Assembly: GCA_946186375.1 (NCBI GenBank)
Contig: CAMHMZ010000001.1
Location: 186,001-250,000 of the forward strand
Length of the DNA stretch: 64,000 nucleotides
Origin: an uncultured Clostridia bacterium
Lineage (GTDB): Bacteria; Bacillota; Clostridia; Oscillospirales; Oscillospiraceae
Direction of reading: 5' to 3'
Under the pieces are notes generated by a model. The model was not told where the DNA came from. It saw nothing but the letters and a program-made list of their open reading frames with translations, and did no database searches. A program made the position numbers and the translations under genes. Of the stretch, positions 2,136 to 60,441 are shown one piece after another (position 1 is the first letter of the stretch; the number at the start of each line of letters is the position of its first letter).

Positions 2136-2163
2136 TTGCCAAAAGCAGCGCATGATAGTAAAA
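2136..2163 (+). promoter_or_regulatory. GTAAAA-class promoter upstream of topB
   Basis: TTGCCA (2136-2141), exactly 16 nt, then GTAAAA (2158-2163). It matches the spacing of the other promoters of this class but lacks the ATAGCACA box and the leader hairpin. Confidence 0.6.
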
Positions 2164-2200
2164 TTGTTACAGGACAACATTTGCATAAGGGGATGGTACC

Positions 2201-4498
2201 ATCAAAAATCTTATTATCACAGAGAAGCCGAGTGTGGCCAGACAGTTTGCCGCAGCTCTCGGGGTAAAAGGGAATAAAGACGGCTATATAGAGGACGGCA
2301 AATGGGTGATCACGTGGTGTGTTGGGCATCTGATCACACTGTGTATGCCGGAAAAATATGATGAGGAACTCAAGAAGTGGTCGCTCGACACACTGCCGTT
2401 TTTGCCGTCAAAATACAAATATGAGGTTCTTTCAAGCACAGCAAAACAATACCGCATCGTAAAAGAGCTTCTGAACAGAAAGGACATCGGCGTTATTTAT
2501 AACGCTGGAGACTCTGGACGAGAAGGAGAGTATATCCAGCGTCTTGTGTACCAGGCGGCAGGGGTTCAGGGAAAGAAGGCGATCAAGCGCGTATGGATAG
2601 ACTCACAGACGGATGCTGAAATCAAACGCGGGATCAAAGAAGCCAAGCCATCGTCTGATTACGACGATCTTGCCGCAGCGGCATATGAGCGAGCGATCGC
2701 AGACTTTGCTGTCGGGATCAATTTGAGCCGCGCGCTGAGCTGCAAATTTGGCCGGGCATTCAATGCGAACGCGGGAACGTCCAGATATATCCCGATGGCC
2801 GTGGGGCGCGTTATGACATGCGTTCTCGGAATGGTCGTCGATAGAGAGCGTGAGATCAGAAACTTTAAGCCTGTGGACTATTTCAAGATCGACGCAGATC
2901 ATGATGGGTGGACAAGTCATTGGAAGGCTGTAAAGGGAACTAAGTATTTTGAGGCGCAATCACTTTACAACGAAACAGGCTTTGCCTTGAAGCCGGTCGC
3001 CGATGCTTTATGCAAAGAGCTTTCGCGCGATCCGAGGTTAAAAGTACTAAAGGTTGAGCGAAAGACGGAGAAGCAACAGGCTCCAGCACTGTTCAACTTG
3101 GCAGAACTTCAGGCGGAGTGCACTAAGCGGTATAAAATCAGCCCCGCACAGACTTTGGAAATTGCGCAAAGCTTGTATGAAAAGAAACTGACTACTTACC
3201 CCAGAACTGACGCACGCGTCATGAGCACGGCTGTTGCAGATGTTGTGGAAAACAACATCCGAGGGTTATTGAAAATCACAGGTTGGAAGGCTGAAATCGA
3301 TCCGATCCTGAATGGCGGTTGGCACAAAACAATAGCTAAAAGCAAAAAATATGTAGATGACAGCAAGATCACGGATCACTATGCAATCATTCCGACCGGC
3401 GAGGGTGGAAGTGAGCTTTCTGGATGCTCTGATATTGAAAAGAAAGTCTATCAGCTTATCGCGAAACGCTTTCTGGCGGTATTTTATCCGCCGGCAGAAT
3501 ACGCAAAAACAGAGATCGAGCTTATTCACAGCAACGGAGAACATTTCTTTGCATCGGAAAAGGTGCTGATGAAACCAGGATACAAGGCTGTGTATTCTGA
3601 AGCAAAAACCGACGAAGATGGAGACGAGAAAAAAGCTGCGGGAAACCTGGCAAGCATCAAGGATGGAGATGTTGTGAGCGCAAAATTCAAAGTGCTGACA
3701 TCAACAACGCAGCCGCCGAAGCGCTACACGTCCGGATCTATTGTACTGGCAATGGAAGGCGCCGGCAAGCTGATCGACGAACCGGAACTGCGCGAACAGA
3801 TCAAGGGTTCAGGCATAGGGACGTCCGCCACACGTGCGGAGACGATCAGCAAGCTGGAACATAATGAGTATATAGACATCGACAAAAAGACGCAGATCAT
3901 TACGCCGTCGAAATTAGGTGAGAGTATGTACGACATCGTTAAAGACAATGTGCCGCAGATGCTCAGTCCGAAAATGACAGCTTCATGGGAGAAGGGCCTT
4001 GCACAGGTAGAGCAGGGGACTACATCCGCAGCGCAATACAGAGCTGCCAGCGAAAAGTTTGTGAAGCAGGCCGTGGAAGTCATCAAAGCAAAAGAAGCAC
4101 CAGTGGCTACCTACAACACCGCAGAACGAACCGTTGTCGGAAAGTGCCCACGTTGTGGGAAGGATGTTGTTGAAGGATCTAAAGGTTTTGGATGTGTTGG
4201 TTTCAAGGATGACCCTCCATGCAAGTTCACAATATGGAAAACATCTGCGCTTTTAGACACCGGCAAAAAATCAATTTCTGCAGCTCAAGCAAAACAACTT
4301 CTTGCCGGTAAAAGCATTATCATCAAAGGTCTAAAGTCAAAAACCGGCAAAAGCTATGACGCGAGTTTCACGCTGGAGGACGATGGAGAGCGGGCAAATC
4401 TAAAGATGTCGTTCGATGGGTTACCAGCGAAGAAGCCATCATCTCGTCCGACTGGAAAAACCGCAGCAAAGACCTCTACTCGAGCAAAGAAAAAATAG
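2201..4498 (+). CDS. topB: DNA topoisomerase III (type IA)
   Basis: About 765 aa. The N-terminal TOPRIM domain has LIITEKPSVA (catalytic Glu at residue 8) and AGDSGREGE (about 102-110). The active-site tyrosine is Y333 in TTYPRTDARVM, and HYAIIPTGE follows. The C-terminus has a cysteine-rich CPRCGKDV module for single-stranded DNA binding. It passes single strands to decatenate and relax DNA. The conserved N-terminus lies upstream of the first GTG (2234) and an in-frame TAA sits at 2186. The only start that keeps the catalytic Glu with a good Shine-Dalgarno (AAGGGG, 8 nt away) is ATC at 2201. An unusual start or a point mutation is implied. Confidence 0.9.
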   Translation: MKNLIITEKPSVARQFAAALGVKGNKDGYIEDGKWVITWCVGHLITLCMPEKYDEELKKWSLDTLPFLPSKYKYEVLSSTAKQYRIVKELLNRKDIGVIYNAGDSGREGEYIQRLVYQAAGVQGKKAIKRVWIDSQTDAEIKRGIKEAKPSSDYDDLAAAAYERAIADFAVGINLSRALSCKFGRAFNANAGTSRYIPMAVGRVMTCVLGMVVDREREIRNFKPVDYFKIDADHDGWTSHWKAVKGTKYFEAQSLYNETGFALKPVADALCKELSRDPRLKVLKVERKTEKQQAPALFNLAELQAECTKRYKISPAQTLEIAQSLYEKKLTTYPRTDARVMSTAVADVVENNIRGLLKITGWKAEIDPILNGGWHKTIAKSKKYVDDSKITDHYAIIPTGEGGSELSGCSDIEKKVYQLIAKRFLAVFYPPAEYAKTEIELIHSNGEHFFASEKVLMKPGYKAVYSEAKTDEDGDEKKAAGNLASIKDGDVVSAKFKVLTSTTQPPKRYTSGSIVLAMEGAGKLIDEPELREQIKGSGIGTSATRAETISKLEHNEYIDIDKKTQIITPSKLGESMYDIVKDNVPQMLSPKMTASWEKGLAQVEQGTTSAAQYRAASEKFVKQAVEVIKAKEAPVATYNTAERTVVGKCPRCGKDVVEGSKGFGCVGFKDDPPCKFTIWKTSALLDTGKKSISAAQAKQLLAGKSIIIKGLKSKTGKSYDASFTLEDDGERANLKMSFDGLPAKKPSSRPTGKTAAKTSTRAKKK

Positions 4499-4503
4499 AA
4501 GCA

Positions 4504-4535
4504 AGCAGCCGCGAAAAATCGTGGCTGCTTTTTTG
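4504..4535 (+). terminator. Terminator after topB
   Basis: AGCAGCC pairs with GGCTGCT, with an inner CGA/TCG pair, followed by six T, 6 nt after the TAG stop of topB. Confidence 0.85.
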
Positions 4536-4564
4536 TATGCATTGGCATTCGCATTGATCTTTCG

Positions 4565-4660
4565 ATGACAGCGGAACAATAAAGCCGTAAAACACAAATA
4601 CACGAGTAGAAGATTCACGACGTTTGCCGGGCTCAGAAGAGACGGTATAGACGTCGTTTT
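4565..4660 (+). promoter_or_regulatory. GTAAAA-class promoter with leader hairpin (BRO operon)
   Basis: ATGACA (4565-4570), 16 nt, GTAAAA (4587-4592). The leader contains TAGAAGATTCACGAC and a 7-bp ACGACGT/ACGTCGT hairpin (4617-4657) followed by TTTT. The leader is shared in sequence with the promoter at 40996. Confidence 0.65.
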
Positions 4661-4749
4661 ATATTATAGATTTTCCACGCAACCAGTTTTTTGCGCGGCA
4701 TAGTCTACGCGAAAAAGCTGCGAATATAAACGAAAGGGTAGATTTAACA

Positions 4750-4970: not shown

Positions 4971-5600
4971 ATGTTTTTTGAGAATTCATTATTTGGCGCG
5001 CTCAATTACGAAGTACTGAATGGAGACCCCTGGTTTAGGGCGGGCGATGTGTATGCTGCGCTCGACCTGGATAAGTCCGTCATTCGCCGTATTGACGATG
5101 ACGACAAAATGAGCATTTCGACGACGCTGAAAAACGGCGGCCACAGGAAGATGGTATACATCTCCGAAGCGGGTGTTTATCAGATGATCTTCGCGAGCCG
5201 CTCAGCAGTCGCTAAGGAATTTAAGCGTTGGTTGTGCCATGTTGTCCTTCCCTCCATCCGCAAGAATGGTGGTTACATCATCGGCCAGGAGAACATGGAC
5301 GAGGCCGAGCTTAAAGAACTCACGGCCAAGGTCAGCCAGCTGGCGGAAGAAGTGGCTAGTCTGACGGCTGGGAAGGAAAAGGTCACGACCTATCTCACCA
5401 AGAGCGATGATATTATCGCCCAGATGGGAAAAACGGTCCGTCACCTGCTCAGTGTGCTCGCTGAGCACGGCATCGATCCGAATCCGGCGAAGAAAAAGGC
5501 TGTCGCTCCTGATGATCCCAGGGTCATCACAAAAGGCGGTCTTCTGATGCGCCGCAGCGAGGCCCTCGCCGCGGGGGAGTTGTTCTCTCTCGCGCCGTGA
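4971..5600 (+). CDS. BRO family N-terminal domain protein (antirepressor-like)
   Basis: 209 aa. Residues 1-105 are a Bro-N domain: the NGDPWFRAGDVYAALDL start, a short basic turn, ISEAGVYQMIFAS and FKRWLCHVVLPSIRKNGGYI are all present. A coiled-coil-like segment (about 110-160) and a unique C-terminus follow. Bro-N domains bind DNA and are common in phage antirepressors. A strong AAGGAGG precedes ATG 4971. The gene shares an inverted-repeat box with the next gene, so the two may be co-regulated, perhaps by this protein (inference). Confidence 0.85.
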   Translation: MFFENSLFGALNYEVLNGDPWFRAGDVYAALDLDKSVIRRIDDDDKMSISTTLKNGGHRKMVYISEAGVYQMIFASRSAVAKEFKRWLCHVVLPSIRKNGGYIIGQENMDEAELKELTAKVSQLAEEVASLTAGKEKVTTYLTKSDDIIAQMGKTVRHLLSVLAEHGIDPNPAKKKAVAPDDPRVITKGGLLMRRSEALAAGELFSLAP

Positions 5601-11756: not shown

Positions 11757-11784
11757 TTGACAAACACAACCGCTAACAGTAATA
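11757..11784 (+). promoter_or_regulatory. GTAAAA-class promoter (GTAATA variant)
   Basis: TTGACA (11757-11762), 16 nt, GTAATA (11779-11784), 35-65 nt upstream of the TTG start at 11826. No U-run hairpin in the leader. Confidence 0.6.
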
Positions 11785-11825
11785 ACATGCCAAACAAAAG
11801 ACTATGTTTTGCGGAGGTTTTTAAA

Positions 11826-13431: not shown

Positions 13432-13446
13432 AATTTACTTGTGTCC

Positions 13447-13552
13447 ATATGCGCCATTCAGAATTGACGGAAAGCGCAATAATAGGTAATATCAGAAATG
13501 CATATAGCACAAGAAAAAAGCAGTCGGCTTATCAGAGCTGGCTGTTTTTTTA
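13447..13552 (+). promoter_or_regulatory. Promoter-leader cassette (GTAATA) with terminator-like hairpin
   Basis: ATATGCGCC (13447-13455), TTGACG (13464-13469), 16 nt, GTAATA (13486-13491), 12 nt, ATAGCACA (13504-13511), then an 8-bp CAGTCGGC/GCTGGCTG hairpin (13521-13544) and eight T. A full example of the recurrent design. Confidence 0.75.
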
Positions 13553-13614
13553 ACATTTTTTTGGAGGCATGTGCTGTTTGTTTTGACCGTAAAAGAAGAA
13601 AGAAGGGAAATAAA

Positions 13615-19573: not shown

Positions 19574-19654
19574 GCATATGCGCCATTTAGGGTTTGATTT
19601 GAATGACAGAAGAGGGTGAATACAGTAAAACAAATAGCGTACATAGGACGAATA
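19574..19654 (+). promoter_or_regulatory. GTAAAA-class promoter, leader cut by TnpB element
   Basis: CATATGCGCCATT, then ATGACA (19603-19608), 16 nt, GTAAAA (19625-19630), 12 nt, ATAGGACG. The leader hairpin is missing because TnpB element copy 2 begins at 19664. Confidence 0.65.
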
Positions 19655-19663
19655 ATGGATAAT

Positions 19664-21029
19664 GGGTGCACAAAACCTGAGGGCGATACAACAAACTTTT
19701 GAAGGAATGGGGGTCTGGCGATGAAGCGCAAGCATGGGCTACGCATGAGGATTTATCCGAACGCAAAGCAAGCGACGAAAATTGATATAACGATCAACGC
19801 ATGCCGGTTTCTGTATAACAAAATGATCGAAGTGCAGCAGAAGGTATACAAGCGCCGCGGCGAGCACCTTTCAACGTATGAAATGCAAAAGCTGCTCACG
19901 AAGATGAAGGCGCAGTATCCATGGCTGCGATGCGTTGATAGCAAAGCGCTCCAATCGGTATGTGCAGCTGTGTCCAACGCATATGACGGTTTCTTCCGCA
20001 GGGTGAAGCAAGGTACGAAGCCCGGCTTCCCTAAATTCAAAAGTCGGAAGACCGCCAAGATGAGCTACACGTCGACCAATGGATCGGCCATGTATATAGA
20101 CCAGGGGAGAGTGAAAATTCCGATTCTCGGTTGGGTCAAGGCCTCTGTGCCGCGCATCCCGGATGGTACGATCTGTAGGGTGACGATCACGAAGACAAGC
20201 ACAGGGAAATACTACGCAAGCTTCATCGTGGAGGAAGAAATTGAGGAGCTTCCGCCTGTATCCAGCGAAGTCGGCATTGACGTTGGCATCAAATGTTATG
20301 CCGCTGACAGCAATGGTAATACATATGAGAATCCGAAGTTTCTTCGGAATTCAGAAAAGAAGCTGCGGAGAGAGCAACGAAGACTGTCTCGCAAGCATAA
20401 GGGTTCTTCCAATAGAAAGAAGCAACAGAAACGTGTGGCGAGAGCACACGAAAAAGTTGCGAACCAGAGAAAAGATTACCTGCACAAGTTGAGCACGACA
20501 ATTGTTCGCGAGAACCAAGTGATCTGTGTCGAAGATCTCAATGTACAGGGCATGATGAAGAACCATCACTTGGCTAAATCAATAGCCGATGCCGGCTGGG
20601 CCTCCTTCATAGGTATGCTGGAGTACAAGTGCCAGTGGTACGGCAGGGATCTGGTGAAGGTGCCAAGGTTCTTTGCGAGCTCACAAACCTGCTCCTGCTG
20701 TGGGGCCGTGGATCGCGATCTAAAAAAGTTGAGCATTCGCTCCTGGACGTGTCCAGAGTGCGGCGCACAACACGATCGCGATATCAACGCAGCGAAAAAT
20801 ATTCTTTTGAAAGGAAAGGGTATATTGCCTCAAGCGGCGTAGACCTTTTGACTTTGGTACCGTGTGGTACACGGGAACCGCCGAAAGGCAAACGCTTGTG
20901 GAAATCGTGTAAGACCAAAGGAGTCTTCGACTCCGGAGGCAACAATCGTTGAAGCAAGAACTAAAGGACGTTGTGGGATGGTCGGAAGCCAGTCCAACTG
21001 GCTCATCCTCCTCAGATTTTAGATACCCC
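19664..21029 (+). mobile_element. TnpB-carrying insertion element, copy 2 (1,366 bp)
   Basis: Same length and organisation as copy 1. Left end GGGTGCACAAAACCTGAGG; right end, other strand, GGGGTATCTAAAATCTGAGG, again imperfect inverted repeats. The flanks show only G(G/A)ATAAT on both sides. To the right lies the C-terminal remnant of an Arr-like gene with no 5' part to the left, so a deletion probably accompanied or followed insertion. Confidence 0.75.
19721..20842 (+). CDS. tnpB: TnpB RNA-guided endonuclease (copy 2)
   Basis: 373 aa with all RuvC residues ([24 protein letters not shown]) and the CxxC zinc pairs intact. Differences from copy 1 are confined to the N-terminal two thirds (for example residues 2, 9, 23, 64, 82, 175 and a patch near 210-227). 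GGGGGTC precedes the ATG at 19721. Confidence 0.95.
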
Positions 21030-24645: not shown

Positions 24646-24672
24646 ACATGCCGTTTGTTTGCTGATTGGCGG

Positions 24673-24775
24673 ATGCACAAAGGCTGAATTGACACGTTGA
24701 CAACAAATCGGTAAAACTCGAATGAAGTATATTGAAGAAGACTCCCACCGACCCGATACTGGGTTGGTGGTTTTT
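24673..24775 (+). promoter_or_regulatory. Promoter-leader cassette with terminator-like hairpin
   Basis: ATGCACA, 9 nt, TTGACA (24689-24694), 16 nt, GTAAAA (24711-24716), then a 10-bp CCACCGACCC/GGGTTGGTGG hairpin (24745-24770) and five T. The downstream gene begins 46 nt later. Confidence 0.75.
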
Positions 24776-24821
24776 ATATACGCACAAAAGAAAAAAAACA
24801 AATACAAGAAGGAGAACAAAA

Positions 24822-26525: not shown

Positions 26526-27161
26526 ATGATAGCGAAAAGATACCTTCTTCTGGAGGGGGAAACTAACGGTTTCCCAGCAATCGTTGAGCTTCCTTACGAG
26601 AAGCTCAGCGATGCAATCGAAGCTCTCGAAAGAGAGTTCAAACGCCTTGTGGATGGCGTGTTCGGCAAAGATCATGTGATCAAATACGATCAGAACGGCG
26701 ATGCTGAGTTGATCGACGATGACGGTATCCGCTATTCTCTCGTCCATGATGGGGGAGAGGATTCGCCGAGCTTTTTTGTCCACGACGGCAAGGGTACGGT
26801 ATATACCGGCGTCCTGCGTGAGATTACGATCCACGCAAACGCAACCGAGCTGGAGCGTGGATACCGTCAAGCGGAACACAAGTACCTTCTGGAAGACGCC
26901 GAGCGTCATTTCTTGGAGTATGTTGGCTTCGACGTCGATGCCGACGAGGAAGACGGAGACAACGCGGCAGCGAATCAGACGTTCATGGACACCTACGGGT
27001 TTTCCATTGGAGAAGCGATCAACGATAGTTCCGAATCCTATCTTCTGGACGATATGGTTGAGCTTTTCGAGAGAAAACGCGACTGCAATCTTCCAGAGAA
27101 CGATGTTTGGGAAAATGTCGTGCAAGCCGTCCTGATGCGCTGCGCCGCGAGCCGGCGGTGA
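26526..27161 (+). CDS. Hypothetical protein with YGF-type C-terminal module
   Basis: 211 aa. The C-terminal 75 residues (FMDTYGFSIGEAINDSSESY, then LFERKRDCN and WENVVQAVL) match the end of the 18745 protein. The N-terminal half is acidic and unrecognised. Confidence 0.65.
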   Translation: MIAKRYLLLEGETNGFPAIVELPYEKLSDAIEALEREFKRLVDGVFGKDHVIKYDQNGDAELIDDDGIRYSLVHDGGEDSPSFFVHDGKGTVYTGVLREITIHANATELERGYRQAEHKYLLEDAERHFLEYVGFDVDADEEDGDNAAANQTFMDTYGFSIGEAINDSSESYLLDDMVELFERKRDCNLPENDVWENVVQAVLMRCAASRR

Positions 27162-27180
27162 CAGAAGCGAGTCGTTTTTG

Positions 27181-27268
27181 ATGACAGTTGCTATCTGCAG
27201 CCGTAAAACATGGTTGCAAATAGCACACAAAAATTACAACCACCCGAAATATTCGGGTGGTTGTTTTT
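27181..27268 (+). promoter_or_regulatory. Promoter-leader cassette with terminator-like hairpin
   Basis: ATGACA (27181-27186), 16 nt, GTAAAA (27203-27208), 11 nt, ATAGCACA (27220-27227), a perfect 12-bp CAACCACCCGAA/TTCGGGTGGTTG hairpin (27237-27263) and five T. The gene starts at 27310. Confidence 0.8.
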
Positions 27269-27309
27269 CATATATGTAAGATTTTAGCTAGAAAAAAGAA
27301 GGAGGAAAC

Positions 27310-27852
27310 ATGAAAAGAGATATCAAAGTGATCAGCATCATGGACGATGCCATCGCAAACGTCCAGAGAGATCTGGCATACAAGCAGTGGCAGATGAAAG
27401 ACCGTCTGCGCATCTTCCGCAACCATGCGGCAGAGTCAACTGCAAAGGGTATCGACGCAATGCAACCGGACATCTCAGCTGTTCAGTTTGCCGCTGCCAA
27501 AGTTCGCGAAGATGAGGTGCTGCTGTCCAACCTGCAGACCATTCGCGCAAAAATGGCCAATGCGGTGCACGAGCCGGAAGAATCTCTTTGTGTGGAAGCC
27601 AATCGCTTGGCTCAGGAAATCGACGATCTTGTGTATGAGTACGATACGTACGGATACAACGATGCGTTCATCACGAGAGATGAAGGTTTTTCGGCATACC
27701 TGAACGGAGTCTACGACACGGACGACTTGGCTTTGCTGGAAGAGCTCCAGGAAATGCTGGGCGCGGAGGAAGAATCTGTGGCCAATAAAGCGCGTGATCT
27801 TCTGTGCCGTGCGATGGATATCAAGATCCGTTTAATGGAGGCCGTCGGATGA
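27310..27852 (+). CDS. Hypothetical helical protein
   Basis: 180 aa, almost all helical, with coiled-coil tendency in the first 80 residues. The stop overlaps the next ATG. Not recognised. Confidence 0.65.
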   Translation: MKRDIKVISIMDDAIANVQRDLAYKQWQMKDRLRIFRNHAAESTAKGIDAMQPDISAVQFAAAKVREDEVLLSNLQTIRAKMANAVHEPEESLCVEANRLAQEIDDLVYEYDTYGYNDAFITRDEGFSAYLNGVYDTDDLALLEELQEMLGAEEESVANKARDLLCRAMDIKIRLMEAVG

Positions 27853-28685
27853 AAAAGCATCTCTACACAAACACTGAGATCTTCAAGCTCATCATGAACC
27901 AGCTTCAGAGCGAGAACCGTGCCCCGGACATTCTTGAGTATGCTCTGGCTGAAAGCGGCCCTGTCGAAATTCGTAACTACGAATTCGACATTCTCGGCGC
28001 CGTCAACTATGGCAGCTCGGAAGGGATCTATGTTGATCTTTTCCTTAGAGGGAACATCGGATACGGTTGGAATGGGAAAGAACACACGCGGCTGGGCACG
28101 ATCAAGACGCTCAGAACTGATGATGACGCTTTCCGCCAGATGGCTGTGCTCATGGCCGATTTCCAGATCGCCGCAACCCGGTTCGTCAATGCTCACCTCG
28201 ATGATTTCACCTGGCTCGGGTTCGATATCGATTATTTCCGAACGGGTGAAGCTGAGCGAAGCTACGGTGTAACTATGAAGGGCGTGAAGTCCTTCGATGA
28301 AGCTGTCGAAGAGGCGAAGCGCACGCTGAAGCGTTTCCCGTACTACGTCAAGGCCGTCATCACACACAACGCGGATGAGAAGACCAAGACTGTGTACGGA
28401 AACGAGGATCAGATGCGCTACTTCGAGCTGTGGATTCAGGAAAATCCTGATGTTGCCGGCGGACTTAATGATTTCGATGTTTGCATCAGAGGAATCAGAG
28501 AGCCTACAATCGAAGAGGCGGAAGCTATTATTCGCAGGGATTTCGTACAGACCGATGGCAAAGAAATGCATGTGACTCGTCTGAATGAGATCTCGTACAA
28601 AGACGCGGTCCGCGACTTTGATCTGTCCGATGTCGATGAGTGGCCTGTATTCGGCCTGGAAGGAGAAAAGAAAGATGGCAATTGA
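27849..28685 (+). CDS. Hypothetical protein
   Basis: 278 aa from ATG 27849, overlapping the previous stop. Alpha/beta with YEFDILGAVNYGSSEGIYVD, WLGFDIDYFRTGEAERSYGV and two later beta segments that may be repeats of a small domain. Not recognised. It overlaps the next gene by 11 nt. Confidence 0.65.
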   Translation: MKKHLYTNTEIFKLIMNQLQSENRAPDILEYALAESGPVEIRNYEFDILGAVNYGSSEGIYVDLFLRGNIGYGWNGKEHTRLGTIKTLRTDDDAFRQMAVLMADFQIAATRFVNAHLDDFTWLGFDIDYFRTGEAERSYGVTMKGVKSFDEAVEEAKRTLKRFPYYVKAVITHNADEKTKTVYGNEDQMRYFELWIQENPDVAGGLNDFDVCIRGIREPTIEEAEAIIRRDFVQTDGKEMHVTRLNEISYKDAVRDFDLSDVDEWPVFGLEGEKKDGN

Positions 28686-29451
28686 TGTTTCTATGCTGAA
28701 AGAAATCGGCATGCTGCAGTCGGATTATAACCGTCTGTTGAAGAGTAAGGCCTTCACCAAGAAGGCCCTCTGTGAACTGGTTATTCCGTTCCGAGATAAG
28801 CACGGGCTTTCTGATTCGGAAGCCTTGCAGATCGCAAGGAATGAGATGTCTATCGCACAGATGGCTGAAATTCTGGAAGCAAAGGATCCGAACCAGGTGG
28901 CAATGTATGCCGATGAGAAGGCGGCTGATGCGTTTTCCAGATGGTGCCACGATAAGCACGATCGTTTTTTGCAGAAGTATGAAGATGCGTCTGCAAACAA
29001 GGCCCTGTACTACAAGGGCCTCGCAGAAGCATTCCACAATGCTGGATGCATGTTCGATGCGCTTACCACGCGCAACAGCCATCTTCCTCCGGAAATGGTG
29101 CGCTACCTGCGTGAAGAAAGTGCAGTCTGTCCAGCGTACTATCTGGCGGTCTTCATGAATGAAGAACCGGCTTGCTACGGAGAAGAGACCGCTATCTGCC
29201 TTGCAGTAGACAGATCCACTCTGGAGAAGGTAACTGTCAATGGCGTGAACGCTTTCCTCACGGGGGTTGGCATTTGCCGCGGCGATGTGCACGTCTACAA
29301 GGTGGAAGAGATCAGCGCAGAAGAGGCCGATCGAGACTTTCACGGAAAGGGCGGCAAGTGCGGTTCGTTCTTTTTCCCAATGAGAGATCAATGGACGATC
29401 GTCGACTTGGAGCATCTTCCGGAGGGTGGGCTTGTCTACGGGCAGCCGTAA
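28675..29451 (+). CDS. Hypothetical protein
   Basis: 258 aa from ATG 28675 (AAGGAG upstream). Helical N-terminal 130 residues, then an alpha/beta half with CLAVDRSTLEKVTVNGVNAF and CRGDVHVYKVEEI. Not recognised. Confidence 0.65.
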   Translation: MAIDVSMLKEIGMLQSDYNRLLKSKAFTKKALCELVIPFRDKHGLSDSEALQIARNEMSIAQMAEILEAKDPNQVAMYADEKAADAFSRWCHDKHDRFLQKYEDASANKALYYKGLAEAFHNAGCMFDALTTRNSHLPPEMVRYLREESAVCPAYYLAVFMNEEPACYGEETAICLAVDRSTLEKVTVNGVNAFLTGVGICRGDVHVYKVEEISAEEADRDFHGKGGKCGSFFFPMRDQWTIVDLEHLPEGGLVYGQP

Positions 29452-29510
29452 CGCACAAATAGCGGCAGTATTTCAACAGCCGCGCATATCACTCATAGAA
29501 AGGAGAACCA

Positions 29511-30143
29511 ATGGCAAACAGCGGAACTTTTCTGGCAGAAATGCCTGGCATGTGGGAAGAAGAAGCTTTCCATATGCTGTTTGCAGCAACCGGCTGGGAC
29601 AAGATCAAAGCCGGTTTAGACCGCGGCGAGACTCAGTATGAGATGGTCGAGATGGACGCTTTCGTAAAGGTGCTCAAAAAATACATTCCGGAAGAAAGAT
29701 TGAAAACTCTCTATCTTCCAGAGTTTCTTGAGCACCCGGAGCGCTTCTCTCCAGTCCGTTGTATTCTTTATTCAAATAAGCCCGATTCGGTCACGGCCTT
29801 GTCTGTGTATACGTGTGATGCGAGTATCGCACGATTGCTCACAAAGATTTTTCGTGAACGGCCGGTAAAATGCAACTGGTTCATCGATGGATCTGGGGAT
29901 TACGGGTCTTATACTCTGCTCAATAACGCGTACTACGATTACCGTGAAGGCAATCTGCAGGAAGACTTGGAGAAAGCAGAGAACGACGCAATCCAAAATG
30001 CGAAAAAGGCGCACTGGATTAACCCGTCGCGGAATCCGGAATATGTCAATCAGGAATTTTTTTCTGATTGTTCAGAATGCGGATACACTACGTCGGAAGA
30101 ATCCGATACCTGTCCGAACTGCGGCGCCAAAATGGAGCTCTGA
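29511..30143 (+). CDS. Hypothetical protein with C-terminal zinc ribbon
   Basis: 210 aa. N-terminal mixed domain, then a C-terminal zinc ribbon (CSECGYTTSEESDTCPNCGA). Its stop codon lies inside the hairpin at 30133-30158. Function unknown. Confidence 0.7.
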   Translation: MANSGTFLAEMPGMWEEEAFHMLFAATGWDKIKAGLDRGETQYEMVEMDAFVKVLKKYIPEERLKTLYLPEFLEHPERFSPVRCILYSNKPDSVTALSVYTCDASIARLLTKIFRERPVKCNWFIDGSGDYGSYTLLNNAYYDYREGNLQEDLEKAENDAIQNAKKAHWINPSRNPEYVNQEFFSDCSECGYTTSEESDTCPNCGAKMEL

Positions 30144-30158: not shown

Positions 30159-30181
30159 CACAAAAAAGAAAGGAAAAACAA

Positions 30182-31123: not shown

Positions 31124-31134
31124 ATTTTAGTTTT

Positions 31135-31693: not shown

Positions 31694-31707
31694 GAGGAAG
31701 GAGATAT

Positions 31708-32271: not shown

Positions 32272-32284
32272 GCCTGTTGCGGCA

Positions 32285-32384
32285 TTTGCGCTTGCTCACC
32301 GTTGACTGAAATGAAAATGGCGAGTAAGAATTTTATACAACATAGCACACGATCACCCGCGGGAATACTGCGGGTGATCTTTTT
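32285..32384 (+). promoter_or_regulatory. Promoter-leader cassette with terminator-like hairpin
   Basis: TTTGCGCTT, TTGACT (32302-32307), 16 nt, GTAAGA (32324-32329), 12 nt, ATAGCACA (32342-32349), a perfect 10-bp GATCACCCGC/GCGGGTGATC hairpin (32351-32379) and five T. The gene starts at 32422. Confidence 0.8.
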
Positions 32385-32421
32385 ATGTTGATTTTTGATT
32401 TTGTAGAAAAGGAGAAAAAAC

Positions 32422-33948
32422 ATGGCTTCTCTGAACAAGAAGACCACAAAGATCGGCCAAAAAAGTGGCGTGAAAACCGCGACGGCCAAAAGCAAGCCCG
32501 CAATTCTCGAACAAGTTGAGAAGATGAACGATATCAGAGATATTCTTGAAGCTTTTGGACTTCACGGCCTCTGTGCGGAATGCAGCACGTATTGGGGGAG
32601 AGCTAACGCCGACAAGTACTTTTACTCTGTTCGGGATAGCGGATTCGCGAATGAATATTCGCTTCGCCCCGTGAACAAGCTTGTCGGCTCTCTGTTCGTC
32701 CCGTATGACTCGGGGAAGATCGATCGGTGCGGCAGGAATTCCGCGGCGTATTACGTCTATGAAATTCCCGTCGCGTATGTTTCTGACGATGCTGCTGTGT
32801 GGGCGTCGATGTTGAAAGTCGAAATCAGCGGAGATCTGAAGGGTACCTACAACGCCAGTCGACGCTATTACGTGCAGGAAGAGCTTGAAATCAAGAAGGG
32901 TGCCTCTCTGCAGCCGTTCAAGCTTCTGACAAAGTTTGATCGAGCTGTGGTGCCTATTCAGACAGACAAGGCACTGCTCAACATTATTTTGAGCAGCAAC
33001 AAGTTCGCATACGACTTCGTATGCAAGAACGACGTTGCGCCTCTGAACTTTCTGATGGCCCCTTACCTTGAAACGTTGCACAAGGCTGGCTATGCCTTTG
33101 CTCAGGACTTCTTTGGGCGGGGTATAAAGCCCAATGATGCGGATTGCCTGAACAGGCTCTGCAAACGCGGAAGCAACCCAGCGGAGATCTTCAAAACGTC
33201 GAAAGCTGTCTATAAGGTGCTTGGCCCCAGTGAACGCAACATGACGCTCTGGGATACATACCGCAAGATGGACAAATTCGGCAGGATCACGCAGGAGACG
33301 ATTCGCCAGTCGTACGACCATGCCATGTCTATCAAGAATTTGGATCTCATCTATCAGATCCTCGGCCAGACTTATAATGGCAAGCCGCTGTTCGACTGGG
33401 ACTCGCTCTATAACTATCTGGTACGCCTGGATAAGTTCGAGGCCATCGGAAACGACGAGGCACTCCTGCTGCTGAGGGATTATCTCAACATGTGCCGCCA
33501 GCTCGGCATGAGACCGCGCACGGACGGCGACTCGCTGAAGAGAGAGCACGATGTCGCTGCAAGACTCTGTTTGAATCTTCGGCACGAAGAGCTTGATCGT
33601 CAGATGGAGCCGGCTTGTCAGCGTCTTTCGAAGTATGACTACAACGAGGGTGTCTACTTCATTCGCTGCATCAAGGGTTTTGAAGATCTCCTGTCTGAAG
33701 CTACGCAGCAGCATTCCTGCCTTGTGAGTTATGGCAGAGATATTGCGAATGGACTTTCGAACATCTTTGTAATGAGAGAGGTGACGAACCCGGATCGCAG
33801 CCTTATCACTGTGGAACTCTCGATAGATCGCAAGACGATCACGCAGGCTCTGACGGCCTATAACAAGGGGATCCGAAACAAGAGCCAGCGAGAATTTCTC
33901 GATAGATGGCTACGCTACGTCAAAGACGTAGATCGCTACAGCGCATAA
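32422..33948 (+). CDS. PcfJ-like protein (first copy)
   Basis: 508 aa. A Lys/Thr-rich head (1-30), a long helical middle and a C-terminal domain with SEATQQHSCLVSYGRDIANG and SLITVELSIDRKTITQAL typical of PcfJ, a protein named from the enterococcal plasmid pCF10 and common on mobile elements; its role is unclear. A second member is at 58275. Confidence 0.8.
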   Translation: MASLNKKTTKIGQKSGVKTATAKSKPAILEQVEKMNDIRDILEAFGLHGLCAECSTYWGRANADKYFYSVRDSGFANEYSLRPVNKLVGSLFVPYDSGKIDRCGRNSAAYYVYEIPVAYVSDDAAVWASMLKVEISGDLKGTYNASRRYYVQEELEIKKGASLQPFKLLTKFDRAVVPIQTDKALLNIILSSNKFAYDFVCKNDVAPLNFLMAPYLETLHKAGYAFAQDFFGRGIKPNDADCLNRLCKRGSNPAEIFKTSKAVYKVLGPSERNMTLWDTYRKMDKFGRITQETIRQSYDHAMSIKNLDLIYQILGQTYNGKPLFDWDSLYNYLVRLDKFEAIGNDEALLLLRDYLNMCRQLGMRPRTDGDSLKREHDVAARLCLNLRHEELDRQMEPACQRLSKYDYNEGVYFIRCIKGFEDLLSEATQQHSCLVSYGRDIANGLSNIFVMREVTNPDRSLITVELSIDRKTITQALTAYNKGIRNKSQREFLDRWLRYVKDVDRYSA

Positions 33949-36810: not shown

Positions 36811-36819
36811 TTTGTGGCG

Positions 36820-36921
36820 TTTGTCGTTTAAGCGCATTGACGATGTCAGTCATCTCAAGTAAAAATTCAATATCACATAGCACAAGATCACTCATCGCTT
36901 TTGCGGTGAGTGATCATTTTT
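36820..36921 (+). promoter_or_regulatory. Promoter-leader cassette with terminator-like hairpin
   Basis: TTGACG (36837-36842), 16 nt, GTAAAA (36859-36864), 12 nt, ATAGCACA (36877-36884), a 13-bp hairpin (36886-36915) with a TTTT loop, then ATTTTTA. The RNA ligase gene starts at 36955. Confidence 0.8.
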
Positions 36922-36954
36922 ATCAAAAAATAATAATGAGAAAGAAAAAAGAGT

Positions 36955-37998
36955 ATGAGAAAACTGGCAAGTGTCCAGATCATCAAGTCGGTCGAGCCTA
37001 TTGAGGGCGCAGATTTCATTGAACTGGTGCACGTCCTTGGCTGGCAGTGTGTAGCCAAGAAAGGCGAATTCAAAGAAGGGGATTGCTGTGTGTACTTCGA
37101 GATCGACAGCTTCCTGCCTGTCAGGCCGGAATTTGAGTTCCTGAGAGCGTCAAGCTACAAGAACTCAGAGTTGCTCGGAGAGGGATTTCGGCTTAAGACG
37201 CAGAAGTTCAGAGGCCAGATCTCGCAAGGCCTCGCGCTTCCGGCATCGATTCTGGATCAAACCGGTTGGCACGGGCTTCCGGAGGGAACGGATGTAACCG
37301 AACTTCTCGGTGTCAAGAAGTACGAGGTTCCGGAAATGGCGACTAGCGGCGGCAACGTATGCGGCGTGCTTCCGTGGCACGTTCCGCACACGGACGAGAC
37401 AAGGGTGCAGGCGATGCCTGAGCTCCTGAAGGAGTTTGCGGGAATTCCGTATTACATCTCAACGAAGATCGACGGATCCTCGCATTCGGTCAGCCTCGAC
37501 GAAGACGGCTTCCATGCTATGGGCCACAACTATGAGTACAAGGACGACGGCTCCAGCGGATTTTACAATCTGGTCAAGTCATATGACCTCGAACGCAAAA
37601 TGCGCGCATACGCCGCGGAAAGCGGCGTACAGAAGCTTACCTTGCAGGGTGAGTACGCGGGTCCTGGCATTCAAGGGAACCGTCTAAAGCTCGTAAAACC
37701 CGCCTGGTACGTGTTTACGATCATAGAAGACGGACGTCGAGTCAGTCTTGATAAGATGCTTCACATTTGTGAGGCGTTCGGTATCGAACACGTTCCGATC
37801 GAAGAACGCGGAGAGGATCTGCCTTCCAAGTATCCGACCGTAGAGGCTCTGCTGGAAAGGGCTGACGGAAACTATCCGAACGGTGGAAAGAAGGAGGGTA
37901 TCGTCATTCGACCGGTGGAACCTGTATATTGTGAGATGCTTGGCTCGCCGCTTTCCATGAAAGTAGTAAGCAACAAGTATCTGCTTAAAAACGGGTAA
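36955..37998 (+). CDS. RNA ligase, DRB0094/Rnl5-like
   Basis: 347 aa. An N-terminal OB-like domain (1-110) precedes a nucleotidyltransferase domain, the arrangement of Deinococcus DRB0094. Motif I is STKIDGSSHS with K171, motif IV is KEGIVIRP and motif V is SMKVVSNKYLLK. Such enzymes join RNA ends. It is the second RNA ligase of the window, after 5702-7702, and is the first gene behind its own promoter cassette. Confidence 0.9.
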   Translation: MRKLASVQIIKSVEPIEGADFIELVHVLGWQCVAKKGEFKEGDCCVYFEIDSFLPVRPEFEFLRASSYKNSELLGEGFRLKTQKFRGQISQGLALPASILDQTGWHGLPEGTDVTELLGVKKYEVPEMATSGGNVCGVLPWHVPHTDETRVQAMPELLKEFAGIPYYISTKIDGSSHSVSLDEDGFHAMGHNYEYKDDGSSGFYNLVKSYDLERKMRAYAAESGVQKLTLQGEYAGPGIQGNRLKLVKPAWYVFTIIEDGRRVSLDKMLHICEAFGIEHVPIEERGEDLPSKYPTVEALLERADGNYPNGGKKEGIVIRPVEPVYCEMLGSPLSMKVVSNKYLLKNG

Positions 37999-40963: not shown

Positions 40964-40995
40964 TGCAGACTCGTGACAAAAGAAAGAACGCTTTG

Positions 40996-41090
40996 ATGAC
41001 AGATGTTGTGAACAGTAAGTAAAACATAAATACGCAAATAGAAGATTCACGACACTAAAAACTCGAGACGGGAATGCTGGTGTCGTTTTA
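40996..41090 (+). promoter_or_regulatory. GTAAAA-class promoter with leader hairpin (lipoprotein gene)
   Basis: ATGACA (40996-41001), 17 nt, GTAAAA (41019-41024), ATAGAAGATTCACGAC, an ACGACAC/GTGTCGT hairpin (41049-41086) and TTTTA. This leader is close kin to the one at 4565. The roughly 140 nt from here to 41229 hold no other feature I recognise. Confidence 0.65.
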
Positions 41091-41229
41091 TATCATAAAA
41101 GGCCGGCGCGAGAAATCGCACACAGAAGAAAAAGAGGGGTGGTTAGATCGCTCCTCTTAGAACATTTCAACAAATATAAGCAAGAAAGAGCGGATGGGCA
41201 GATAGCTCACCACAAAACAAGGAGGTTTT

Positions 41230-42042: not shown

Positions 42043-42127
42043 TTGACGCCTGTCCATGTGCAAGGTAAAACAACTGATGCACATAGGACATAAAGCAGCT
42101 CTGCGAAAACAGGGCTGCTTCATTTTT
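42043..42127 (+). promoter_or_regulatory. Promoter-leader cassette with terminator-like hairpin
   Basis: TTGACG (42043-42048), 16 nt, GTAAAA (42065-42070), 12 nt, ATAGGACA (42083-42090), a 10-bp AGCAGCTCTG/CAGGGCTGCT hairpin (42094-42119), then CATTTTT. ATGTGCA and TGCACAT (42055-42061, 42076-42082) form an inverted repeat around the -10. Confidence 0.75.
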
Positions 42128-46464: not shown

Positions 46465-46473
46465 TTATACATG

Positions 46474-46521
46474 GCACATGTCACGTCAGGATGTTGACAT
46501 GACATGTGCTTAGTAGTAAAA
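46474..46521 (+). promoter_or_regulatory. GTAAAA-class promoter of the large RNA, with dyad
   Basis: TTGACA (46494-46499), 16 nt, GTAAAA (46516-46521), 12 nt, ATAGAAG. GCACATGTCA (46474-46483) and TGACATGTGC (46500-46509) form a perfect 10-bp inverted repeat overlapping the spacer, an apparent operator. Confidence 0.75.
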
Positions 46522-46528
46522 CAGAAAT

Positions 46529-47200
46529 AACACATAGAAGTCTGATACGCCGGAAGTTCGGCTGTATGGGAAATATGTGTTCAGGATAACGCCATTTCTC
46601 CTCGCGTTGTCCAGCTGCGGCTCCCTTGCGGCCGTTCTCCGCAGCGTGCTTGTATGAGCATTAGGCCGCTTTCGCCAACGTCCCTTCGGAAAGGGCGCGA
46701 CAGGAAGTCAGTAAACTGTCGGCTGTATAAGATGCGTGATCTTATACGGTGCATAGAAGTATAAATGCGCTGACATTGACCGCGTTGGCCCACGCACCCA
46801 AACGGGCTAAATCTGGCAAATCCGTAACTTCCAGCCAGGACGTCTGCACATTTGGAGGTAGACGGAGGGGAGGATAGTGGTCGCATCAAAAGGGAATAGG
46901 CGACCAACGAGGTAGCGCTGCGGATCGTACAGTGTGCTCATTGTTTCGGCTTACGATGATCGGGGTGATTGGCAAGGCCCACCCCAGATAAGATAACGCC
47001 TTAGGCATCCTCGCCGCGCGAAAATTGCGCGTCGGGTAAAAGCGCGAATGCCAAGGCGTTGTCAAAGCCGCTTGGTTTTGCACGTCCTACCAAAACGTGC
47101 CAGCCGCTGCCGCATCTGCGACGGCGACCGTATAGCTCCCAGCCAAGAAGGGCTGGCGGCAATGGAGTTGAGAGCGTCCTTCGGGACGCTCTCTTTTTTT
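46529..47200 (+). ncRNA. Large structured noncoding RNA (GOLLD/ROOL-type candidate)
   Basis: About 670 nt without a credible gene, bounded by a promoter and a strong terminator. At least ten stems can be read directly: 46546-46567, GCTGCGG/CCGCAGC (46614-46645), CCCTT/AAGGG, a perfect 9-bp GTATAAGAT stem (46725-46747), CGTCT/AGACG, TGGTCGC/GCGACCA (46878-46906), ATCGTA/TACGAT, GGGGTG/CACCCC, a 13-bp AACGCCTT-GGCAT stem with one bulge (46995-47060) closed over CGCGC/GCGCG, and CCAGCC/GGCTGG. Size, multistem design and location on a mobile element recall the ornate GOLLD and ROOL RNAs; class membership is not established. Confidence 0.8.
47170..47200 (+). terminator. Terminator of the large RNA
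   Basis: A perfect 10-bp GAGAGCGTCC stem closed by a UUCG loop is followed by seven T. Confidence 0.95.
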
Positions 47201-47206
47201 CTATGG

Positions 47207-47309
47207 CAAATGCGCCGTCGTGAAATTGACTGAAAGATAGTTAAAAAGTAAAACATCAATACAATATGGAAGGCTAAGGCAGCATTCTCTGGTAGAGTGC
47301 TGTCTTTTT
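47207..47309 (+). promoter_or_regulatory. Promoter-leader cassette with terminator-like hairpin
   Basis: CAAATGCGCC, 9 nt, TTGACT (47226-47231), 16 nt, GTAAAA (47248-47253), then a 10-bp GGCAGCATTC/GAGTGCTGTC hairpin (47278-47304) and five T. Confidence 0.8.
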
Positions 47310-47346
47310 CATTCTGCAAATGAAGAGAAGGAAGGAAAGAAAATCT

Positions 47347-52978: not shown

Positions 52979-52980
52979 CC

Positions 52981-56691: not shown

Positions 56692-57374
56692 GATACAAAA
56701 TCATACCGAAGAAAGACTTCGAGTTCCTAGTGGATGGTAAAGACCCTGTCGATGCGCTGGCGAACTTTGCGGCTAATATGGATTCTGATATGGGCCTTTA
56801 TTTTGAGTCTGTTCCTGACGCAGAAGAAACTGAACCTGGTTGGAAGATTGAGAAACGGGTCAGTGCTGCGGAAGTGTTCCCGACCTGCGAACTCGGCGAA
56901 TTGTCGCTGACATCTGGTTGTGTTTGCATCACAGATCCTTGCTACAATGACGACGCATGGTGCCGGCTCAACAACGTGCCTGTTGTCCCTGGCGAATACA
57001 ATTGCGTAGTGCGCTTTTCTGATGAAGGGGAGTGGGGAATACGTGTTGCTGGCATTGGCATCTATCGAAGCACTCGCGTACGCGAGGAGATGGACTTCGA
57101 TGGCGTCGGTGCTCTGATTGGGGACATCGGCGTGGACGCTGGGCTTGCCGGAATTTTTCAGGACAAGCCGGATTTCACTGATGAGCAGTGGAAGGACTTT
57201 TGTGATGAGATCTATGAAGGGGACGCGTGGCTGGTGAACGGCAAAGATATGCGCGGTTTCTTCAGCTATTCCGGTTTTGGCGATGGTATGTACGCAGTGT
57301 ACGGCCATCCGCACAATGGGACCGGGCCGGCATACGACGGGATCGAGATCATCTTCGTGGAAGACGTAGATTGA
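56688..57374 (+). CDS. DUF4241-like protein
   Basis: 228 aa, overlapping the previous stop. TSGCVCITDPCY, VPGEYNCVVRFSDEGEWGIRVAG, GDIGVDAGLAGIF and GFGDGMYAVYG follow the order seen in DUF4241-type proteins. Function unknown. Confidence 0.5.
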   Translation: MRYKIIPKKDFEFLVDGKDPVDALANFAANMDSDMGLYFESVPDAEETEPGWKIEKRVSAAEVFPTCELGELSLTSGCVCITDPCYNDDAWCRLNNVPVVPGEYNCVVRFSDEGEWGIRVAGIGIYRSTRVREEMDFDGVGALIGDIGVDAGLAGIFQDKPDFTDEQWKDFCDEIYEGDAWLVNGKDMRGFFSYSGFGDGMYAVYGHPHNGTGPAYDGIEIIFVEDVD

Positions 57375-57482
57375 CACATGCGCTGCCGGTTTAATGACAA
57401 AGGCAACGCTGTGTAGTAAAATCAAAAAAGAACATAGCACAAATTCGACAACTACCTGCTAAAGCGGGTAGTTGTCTTTTTT
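57374..57482 (+). promoter_or_regulatory. Promoter-leader cassette with terminator-like hairpin
   Basis: ACATGCGCT, 9 nt, ATGACA (57394-57399), 16 nt, GTAAAA followed by T (57416-57422), 12 nt, ATAGCACA (57434-57441), a 12-bp hairpin (57448-57475) and TCTTTTTT. A complete cassette. Confidence 0.8.
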
Positions 57483-57500
57483 AATATGAAAGGAGAAGAA

Positions 57501-57842
57501 ATGGAAAAAGCTGAAGCAAAGAAGGTCTTTGGGGGCGAAGCCATCGCCGGCGCGAAAAAGATCTGCCGTGTTTTTTGCACTCCTCCTGGAAGTGGCAACT
57601 GCCGCTTCGCTGGAGGTTGTGAAGCCTGTGCGATTTCCAAGCACAAAGGCGAAATCGAAAAGAACCGCAATCAGGCTAGCCGTGGCGATATCTCAGTGGA
57701 CGAGCTTTTTGCTATTTGCGCCTGCTGCGAAAACACGATGGTGTGCCAGAACCAGGACAGCGTCGAGTTTGTCGCGCGAAATGAGGCAAAGTGTTCCGGC
57801 TGCCCGGTGCATATGCTGCGGAAAGGCTGTGAGTCGGCATGA
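57501..57842 (+). CDS. Cys-rich protein, paralog of 54135
   Basis: 113 aa from ATG 57501 (AAAGGAG upstream; ATG 57486 overlaps it). CRVFCTPPGSGNCRFAGGCE, LFAICACCENT and CSGCPVHMLRKGC give many paired cysteines. Likely metal-binding. Confidence 0.65.
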   Translation: MEKAEAKKVFGGEAIAGAKKICRVFCTPPGSGNCRFAGGCEACAISKHKGEIEKNRNQASRGDISVDELFAICACCENTMVCQNQDSVEFVARNEAKCSGCPVHMLRKGCESA

Positions 57843-59696: not shown

Positions 59697-59707
59697 GGAG
59701 GACGGCT

Positions 59708-60085
59708 GTGAACGGAAGGTTTGTTGTTCAGCGCAACGGCCGCAGTATCGTGCCGCTACGCAACGGTGAGTTTGAGTGGGCAATGACCGCGCCCGGAGAG
59801 TTTTATATCTCCGGGCGGGCGGTCGATGCTCTGGCAGCGTACGAAAAATACCCCAAGCCTGGAGAAACCGGCAGTATTATCGCGCCAGACTCTGGTGTGA
59901 TCGAGAATGTTAGAGTAAAATCTTTGACGTTTGACGAGTCCGGCATAAAGATGCGAGTGAGAAACTATTTCGACGCTGATTGGAGTGGTTCCCACGAATG
60001 GGAACTGGAATGCATCCCTGGAGTAACGTGGTTTTGGGACTACGCCAGCGCTGCGGAATATATTTCCTCAAAATATAGCACATGA
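59708..60085 (+). CDS. Hypothetical protein
   Basis: 125 aa from GTG 59708 (AAGGAGGACGG upstream). Beta-rich, with FVVQRNGRSIVPLRNGEFEW and SLTFDESGIKMRVRNYFD. It overlaps the next start. Not recognised. Confidence 0.6.
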   Translation: MNGRFVVQRNGRSIVPLRNGEFEWAMTAPGEFYISGRAVDALAAYEKYPKPGETGSIIAPDSGVIENVRVKSLTFDESGIKMRVRNYFDADWSGSHEWELECIPGVTWFWDYASAAEYISSKYST

Positions 60086-60291
60086 GCAAGTACGGTATTT
60101 GCAAGCGCTGCGGCTTCGAGTTGGAGCCTGTGTTTTTCACGGAAGAGGAGGAAGTCCTTGAGGGCCCTCCTGGTGCCAAATGCTACTGCAAGACGGGCAG
60201 AGTGCGCCGAGCCGTAGACTATCTGGTCTGCGACTGCTGCGGAAACAAGGAGGCTGTCGATGATACATTCGACGGACCTTGGCATTATTAA
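60082..60291 (+). CDS. Zinc-ribbon protein
   Basis: 69 aa. ICKRCGFELEP and VCDCCGNKEAVDD frame a central CYC; the second half resembles the zinc segment of the 23295 protein. Role unknown. Confidence 0.6.
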   Translation: MSKYGICKRCGFELEPVFFTEEEEVLEGPPGAKCYCKTGRVRRAVDYLVCDCCGNKEAVDDTFDGPWHY

Positions 60292-60298
60292 CGAAAGA

Positions 60299-60329
60299 AC
60301 AGAGAGGGCTTTGGCCCTCTCTGTTTTTT
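60299..60329 (+). terminator. Rho-independent terminator
   Basis: An ACAGAGAGGGC/GCCCTCTCTGT stem of 11 bp and a six-T run. Confidence 0.9.
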
Positions 60330-60337
60330 ACTTTGAC

Positions 60338-60441
60338 ATTTGCGCCTACAAAAAGATAACAATGTAGAATTGCAGCGGTAAAACTCAAACGAATATAGCA
60401 CAAAAGTAATGAGCAACGTCCGCATCGGGCGTTGTCTTTTT
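60338..60441 (+). promoter_or_regulatory. Promoter-leader cassette with terminator-like hairpin
   Basis: CATTTGCGCC, 9 nt, ATAACA (60356-60361), 16 nt, GTAAAA (60378-60383), 11 nt, ATAGCACA (60395-60402), a 9-bp CAACGTCCG/CGGGCGTTG hairpin (60414-60434) and TCTTTTT. About 100 AT-rich nt follow before the gene at 60542. Confidence 0.8.

Follow-up and report, generated by a model that had tools for sequence, protein, structure and literature searches.

We analyzed a stretch of 64,000 nucleotides (hereafter, the window) from an uncultured Clostridia bacterium of the family Oscillospiraceae, corresponding to bases 186001-250000 of contig C1 (378,387 bases) in a genome of 3.29 Mb in 133 contigs. 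The window lies within an integrated element that occupies C1 from position 1 to ~327.9 kb, and an earlier note on the window had proposed that promoters of one shared design recur along it; these promoters are the subject of this report. The + strand of the element carries 276 of the 335 genes called by our script. Past ~327.9 kb, the right flank consists of a tRNA-Arg gene (327920-327996) followed by the host genes for FTHFS (formate-THF ligase), RNase J and SpoIID. A tyrosine recombinase gene (C1:326654-327889) has its 3' end 30 bp short of this tRNA gene, and the element encodes a VirD4-type coupling protein (PF02534, 7.3e-58, C1:84668-87139) and a VirB4-type ATPase (PF19044, 2.2e-26, C1:104101-106587). 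Because of VirD4, VirB4 and a tyrosine integrase adjoining tRNA-Arg, the most fitting interpretation of C1:1-327900 is a giant integrative conjugative element beside this tRNA gene. The left end of the element is missing from the contig, so the ~328 kb is a minimum size.

The element has genes for NrdD, a DNA polymerase, a primase and helicases, as well as for DNA topoisomerase, NAD-dependent ligase, RNA ligases and a CCA-adding enzyme. It also carries 39 predicted tRNAs (26+1+2+1+9, host tRNA-Arg excluded), none of them in the window. No match to the relaxase family PF03432, the sole relaxase family searched, was found on C1. Two weak PHROG "terminase large subunit" matches had suggested a jumbo phage, and this reading was dropped because Pfam identifies the proteins concerned as VirD4 and VirB4. 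Likewise, weak PHROG "major tail" and "endolysin" matches are M15 peptidase/SH3 proteins by Pfam, and no capsid or portal match to PHROGs was found among the 40 of the 335 called proteins compared.

To describe the promoters, a matrix was trained on the 16 sites listed in the earlier note and iterated over contig C1, which gave 85 matches of ≥14 bits on the + strand and 9 on the - strand. Because a trained matrix favours itself, we also counted the bare core [TA]TGAC-N17-GTAA over the element (327,900 bases). The + (coding) strand held 47 copies of this core and the - strand held five, against a mean of 2.65 and a maximum of 6 in 20 dinucleotide shuffles, so the enrichment beyond chance that had been expected over the element was found. 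The two outer boxes described below surrounded 15 of the 47 cores on the + strand, none of the five on the - strand and none in the shuffles.

The promoters fall into two classes. Class B combines TTGAC and G+TAAAAC at a spacing of 17 bp (18 at 40996), the layout of sigma-70 -35 and -10 elements, with two further boxes: a start box, ATAGNA, 10-12 nucleotides past the -10 and beginning at about +5 to +7, and an upstream box, TGNCA, which begins 22 bp before the -35 and holds a fixed position about 57-53 bp before the start. Transcription starts were predicted from the -10 position throughout, on this single element. Class A has TTGACAAA...GTAATAA or similar, often with a gene close downstream. 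The upstream box was missed in the design first proposed, and the claim that the -10 lacks its final T proved to be read one base out of register, since the hexamer is TAAAAC behind a G, with a 17-bp spacer and a last base that is mostly C. The regular 16-nucleotide spacing with a single 17-nucleotide exception did hold in that register, the exception being 40996.

Out of 102 promoter rows, 28 matched the start-box pattern, and 23 were kept as the class B set; 5211, 30118 and 182769 were dropped as lying inside other called open reading frames (ORFs), 178162 by its -10 and 168206 by hand. P5211 (C1:5211) combines both boxes with a hairpin and probably belongs to class B. The two boxes were strongly linked. 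Among 74 intergenic promoters, the upstream box was present in 21 of 22 with a start box versus 7 of 52 without one (Fisher p 1.5e-11), and neither box served to find the other in this count. The 23rd start-box promoter, C1:280080, lies below the score threshold of the count and has no upstream box; the only other promoter of the set lacking it is P42043, while it is present in the remaining 21 of 23. In the upstream box, conservation across the 23 promoters reaches 96% for G at -21 and likewise for C at -19, with most flanking columns near background, and no conserved column was seen mid-spacer between -35 and -10.

Start-box promoters are spread over the element from 1.8 to 313 kb, in agreement with the element-wide distribution that had been suggested. 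None of the 23 start-box promoters of class B fell in the 66-176 kb block that contains VirD4 and VirB4, compared with 17 of 40 class A promoters (p 1e-4, for a block picked post hoc). Within the window, 13 of the 16 sites first listed belong to the class B design, and the sites at 2136, 9064 and 11757 do not (Table 1).

Table 1. Promoter sites of the window, with window positions and boxes as read on the strand given.
Site	Class	Extent	Upstream box	-35	G and -10	Start box	Leader terminator	Remarks
2136	promoter-like, outside class B	2136..2240 (+)	none	TTGCCA	GTAAAAT	none		16.5 bits
P4565	B	4543..4665 (+)	4543-4547	ATGACA, 4565-4570	G+TAAAAC, 4587-4593	GTAGAAGA, 4606-4613	hairpin ~4617-4657 + U-run	predicted start ~4600; Bro-N gene at 4971 next
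9064	outside class B			TTGCGG				below 11-bit matrix threshold
11757	A	11757..11825 (+)	none	TTGACAAAC (TTGACA)	GTAATAA	none	none by fixed criteria	ribosome-binding site and gene directly next
P13464	B	13442..13553 (+)	TGTCC	TTGACG	GTAATAT	ATAGCACA, 13504-13511	hairpin ~13520-13545 + TTTTTTAA	
P19603	B	19581..19720 (+)	CGCCA; full TGGCATATGCGCC copy 9 bp further upstream			ATAGGACG	none	leader runs into TnpB gene 19721-20842
P24689	B variant	24667..24778 (+)	TGGCG	TTGACA	GTAAAAC	no proper box	hairpin ~24745-24770 + TTTTTATA	
P27181	B	27159..27272 (+)	TGACA	ATGACA	GTAAAAC	ATAGCACA, 27220-27227	13-bp hairpin ~27236-27264 + U-run	precedes + strand gene run 27310-32271
P32302	B	32280..32389 (+)	CGGCA	TTGACT	GTAAGAA	ATAGCACA, 32342-32349	hairpin GATCACCCGC...GCGGGTGATC + U-run	first gene of operon PcfJ-like, 32422-33948
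P36837	B	36815..36923 (+)	TGGCG	TTGACG	GTAAAAA	ATAGCACA, 36877-36884	hairpin ~36886-36915 + ATTTTTAT	then RNA ligase 36955-37998
P40996	B	40974..41094 (+)	TGACA	ATGACA	GTAAAAC	ATAGAAGA, 41038-41045	hairpin ~41049-41086 + TTTATATC	spacer longer by one base
P42043	B	42043..42127 (+)	none	TTGACG	GTAAAAC	ATAGGACA, 42083-42090	hairpin ~42094-42119 + U-run	gene at 42147
P46494	B	46472..46560 (+)	TGGCA	TTGACA	GTAAAAC	ATAGAAGT, 46534-46541	not found	
P47226	B	47204..47313 (+)	TGGCA	TTGACT	GTAAAAC	ATGGAAGG, 47266-47273	hairpin ~47277-47305 + U-run	separate terminator upstream of promoter
P57394	B	57372..57484 (+)	TGACA	ATGACA	GTAAAAT	ATAGCACA, 57434-57441	13-bp hairpin ~57447-57476 + TTTTTTAA	gene 57501-57842
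P60356	B	60334..60443 (+)	TGACA	ATAACA	GTAAAAC	ATAGCACA, 60395-60402	hairpin ~60413-60435 + CTTTTTGA	separate terminator upstream of promoter

We further analyzed the leaders for predicted terminators, defined as a stem of ≥6 bp with -8 kcal/mol or better and ≥5 T in the next eight bases, within the first 80 nucleotides. Such terminators were present in 15 of 23 class B leaders versus 6 of 47 leaders of other element promoters (Fisher p 1.5e-5), compared with 0.9 of 23 in shuffled leaders and 23 of 252 for other + strand genes, tested in the 80 nucleotides ending 15 nucleotides before the start. The terminator-like leaders claimed earlier therefore stand well above controls; for the window, the layout of hairpin and U-run was seen as described, with a count of 11 of the 13 class B promoters instead of the ten reported. 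Restoring 168206 to class B changes the comparison to 15/24 versus 6/46 (p 5e-5). Three of the six terminator-bearing promoters outside the set, at contig positions 24722, 178603 and 210689, have the upstream box and are probably class B variants.

With these three added, and with slightly different criteria, the resulting set of 26 promoters gave strict leader terminators in 17, whereas the same 23 start-box promoters alone gave 14. The figure of 17/26 is biased upward because the three additions were known to have hairpins, and 15/23 is the fair count. The 17 strict terminators end at +47 ± 5, with the stem at about +18 to +47. Their mean energy (-17.8 kcal/mol) and number of T in the following eight bases (5.9) are close to those of 45 operon-end terminators (-19.4 kcal/mol and 5.5). 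A further terminator lies upstream of the promoter in 13 of the 26 cases overall, and seven of these belong to the 17 strict cases; in those seven, therefore, the preceding operon could end without the terminator in the leader.

As the earlier note had observed, the hairpins share a layout and differ in sequence, although only mostly so, because an ATTC(A)CGAC...GTCGT frame recurs at 4565, 40996 and C1:177011. These leaders have nothing in common but the start box, and any antitermination signal in the RNA would thus have to sit there; a riboswitch-type alternative pairing with each hairpin appears unlikely. No Rfam match at gathering score was found in the window, and seven further 20-kb stretches gave only tRNAs and one HEARO RNA. 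Apart from one candidate start at P19603, no leader peptide was found in the 13 window leaders. A predicted ribosome-binding site with a start codon lies within 100 nucleotides of the predicted start after 7 of the 13 class B promoters in the window.

An element-encoded sigma factor, which the earlier note had recommended looking for, was found. It is a sigma-70 factor of 344 amino acids (C1:51565-52599) with regions 1.2, 2, 3 and 4, clearly unlike the 415-amino-acid SigA-like protein on contig C15. A second tyrosine recombinase gene (L004:10541-11575) overlaps the start of this sigma gene. Region 2.4 reads WWIRQAITRAIADQ in the SigA-like protein versus WWIRRAIVRCLAAQ in the element sigma, and we take two of the changed places to correspond to E. 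coli Q437 and T440, which touch the -10. A search for near-consensus promoters gave ten on the + strand of the element, nine of them with G at -13, whereas in 170 kb of host DNA only 2 of 18 had this G, both small numbers; with the -35 as anchor, 78% of 32 intergenic TTGACA sites on the + strand had G at this offset. The element promoters do not fit the host SigA type (TATAAT without a G preference at -13), and would fit a private regulon read by the element sigma-70.

Several other features adjoin the promoters or lie elsewhere on the element. Bro-N proteins, candidate element regulators, are encoded behind P4565 (window 4971-5600) and C1:5211 (L002:5521-6306), and the leaders of both share sequence; a MazE/AbrB-like DNA-binding protein (window 61614-62132) lies downstream of P60356. 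Of the two TnpB (IS605 OrfB) genes in the window (495-1616 and 19721-20842), the second is located directly in the P19603 leader and may have separated this promoter from its terminator. Type I-E-like cas genes (C1:178737-186130; Cse1 and Cas5 by Pfam, neighbours by sequence start only) lie downstream of P178603, with no repeat array seen in L010:16500-20000 and L011:1-6500. At L010:17500-18500, several promoters stand close together with two repeated segments ~298 nucleotides apart, which may be non-coding RNAs. The HEARO RNA (RF02033, L016:2478-2734) lies upstream of a 423-amino-acid ORF, and an ORF of equal length with an identical internal stretch was found at C1:253682-254953. The element also encodes a serpin-family protein (L008:10833-12401; PF00079, 3e-68).

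We tentatively favour a reading, plausible if still somewhat short of probable, in which these promoters form a regulon that is private to the element and served by its own sigma, with the class B subset activated and its leaders probably gated by antitermination. Host core polymerase carrying the element sigma-70 would read promoters of the form TTGAC-17-TAAWAN with the unusual G at -13. The upstream box of class B would most simply be the site of an element-encoded activator. An element factor would then modify the polymerase at or near the start box, allowing it to pass the leader terminator, and polymerase reading in from outside, or starting without the factor, would be stopped there. Resistance to termination acquired at the start box would be the simplest way for many operons to be expressed despite their terminators, by analogy with Q, GafZ, conAn and canT.

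Several observations weigh against this reading. G at -13 is weaker when the anchor is ATGACA (43% of 14) or TTGACG (54% of 13), and both promoter classes carry it. By the fixed criteria, 8 of the 23 class B leaders have no terminator. In the predicted leader structures, the start box does not stand out as single-stranded, with a mean pairing of 0.49 versus 0.65 for +16 to +55. The antiterminator that the earlier note had also suggested looking for did not appear: no NusG/LoaP copy is present on the element, the genome's only NusG being on contig C108, and the two Q families searched, PF06530 and PF03589, gave nothing above cut-off in this genome. The one sub-threshold Q-type match on C1 is interrupted by a stop and runs antisense within a large + strand gene. 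No activator or antiterminator was identified on the element, where one could easily be missed since most element proteins were left without family-library comparison.

The search outside the element counts partly for and partly against the reading. The exact three-box pattern occurred five times in C1, not at all in the remainder of the 3.29-Mb genome and not in 399 other genomes of the family, which is a limited test because the exact pattern matches just 5 of the 23 copies here. Moreover, no close relative was found that could show conservation of the layout. No viral contig had the exact pattern. Six stretches of a genome-contig collection did have it, and were taken as chance because ~4 were expected by our own arithmetic and none had a leader hairpin by eye.

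Of 393 other genomes of the order, 25 contained VirB4 relatives of 33-46% identity. Inspection by eye of three related elements, which have a VirB4 of 39-43% identity and a few other genes in common with this one, revealed no class B promoter over the whole of G154:C2, G145:C1 to 200,000 of 200,364 bases and G717:C1 to 320,000 of 388,439 bases. The VirB4 relatives point to a widespread family of elements, of which the three inspected appear to lack this promoter system. The G154 (31%) and G717 (24%) contigs contain weak sigma matches in GC-rich DNA beyond the part that resembles the element, with no sigma match reported for G145; 15 of the 393 genomes have matches of 36-38% identity, which are probably their own sigmas. 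Among viral contigs, protein scans with four queries gave no relatives, and seven distant sigma matches were seen at 28-43% identity. No such promoters were seen by eye in 30,627 of 49,643 bases of MT835504.1, whose DNA ligase is 60% identical, nor in six stretches of the host or in contigs encoding relatives (32-45%) of a protein from one class B operon. The layout is apparently restricted to this element.

In the main competing explanation, the leader terminators merely insulate against polymerase arriving from the previous operon or the chromosome and happen to lie just behind the next promoter, whose own polymerase leaks through at a fixed fraction, with no antitermination at all. We consider this possible but unlikely. 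For ten of the 17 strict leaders, no second terminator precedes the promoter, and the leader hairpin could simply end the previous operon, a point that also counts against the gated reading. Tn916 is described in PMC11658703 as having an insulating terminator near one end. On the other hand, the remaining seven strict leaders already have a terminator before the promoter, and the leader terminators would cut the promoter's own output. They also track class B and not the other promoters, though every operon needs insulation.

Another explanation is that TGNCA and ATAGNA are operators of an element repressor that silences the integrated element, the hairpins being secondary. Both boxes hold fixed positions around the promoter, the start box overlaps the start region, and the upstream TGGCACA and start TAGCACA look alike by eye in some copies. 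However, the start-box variants ATAGAAG and ATGGAAG are unlike TGNCA, the terminators are left unexplained, and a box centred near -55 is more usual for an activator; we regard this explanation as improbable. Less probable again is that the hairpins shield mRNA 5' ends from host RNase J and are not terminators. The host does encode RNase J and the hairpins are near the 5' end, but the stems begin at about +18 on average and would leave a long single-stranded tail. In the strict cases, the stem is also followed by a U-run that protection does not need, and strength and T content are those of operon-end terminators. Least probable is that promoter and terminator yield a stable RNA of ~50 nucleotides with read-through into genes incidental: the common 5' end, varied hairpin and clustered 3' ends would suit such a product, but because the hairpins mostly differ, only the start box could serve as a shared pairing target, and genes begin close behind 7 of the 13 class B promoters of the window.

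Returning to the reading of a sigma-dependent and antitermination-gated regulon, we compared it with known systems. Lambda Q acts at one promoter per phage, and its site lies between -35 and -10. The present layout resembles Q at pR'-tR' in that a loading signal sits at the promoter and a terminator follows the start; it differs in having ~23 promoters, an unconserved spacer, boxes located at -57/-53 and near +6, and no Q-family protein above cut-off. A lambda-like pause was considered as an idea only, since TAGCAC resembles the -10 TAAAAC but its invariant G at the third place does not fit. In T4-type phages, PeSL cassettes are reported (Arbiol et al. 2010) to repeat a promoter and stem-loop many times as mobile copies of one sequence. 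The present element differs in that most hairpins are different and only the promoter and boxes are common.

GafY/GafZ of the Caulobacter gene transfer agent (PMC11150451) share an upstream activator and antitermination loaded at the promoter. According to the same paper, GafZ differs in having one target promoter, a site between -10 and -35 and a terminator after the first gene; a further difference is that GafY interacts with RpoD. The closest Gram-positive conjugative elements are pLS20 with conAn and Tn916 with canT, where terminators and processive antitermination exclude stray polymerase (PMC8955417, PMC11658703); both papers also mention Q and qut. There, the determinant is an RNA (452 nucleotides tested for canT; plus a protein in conAn) at one main promoter, with terminators deeper in the operon or element. 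In contrast, the element described here has a short box at many promoters and the terminator within the leader. Beyond lambda Q, GafZ, conAn, canT and PeSL, no described equivalent was found in the open-licence literature, which is weak evidence of novelty.

The more specific possibility is a distributed antitermination regulon, in which some 15-20 operons have a loading site embedded in the promoter together with a terminator that is passable only for polymerase starting there with the element sigma and factor. We put this forward as a conjecture that we lean against. Equally conjecturally, such a regulon would correspond to pR'-tR' in many copies and outside phages, and its loading site, composed of a start box at ~+6 and an activator box at ~-55, would be of a new kind. 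If true, a regulon of some two dozen promoters, mostly self-gated and served by a housekeeping-type sigma of the element, would make this a conjugative element with much of its transcription detached from the host, in a manner known mainly from phages.

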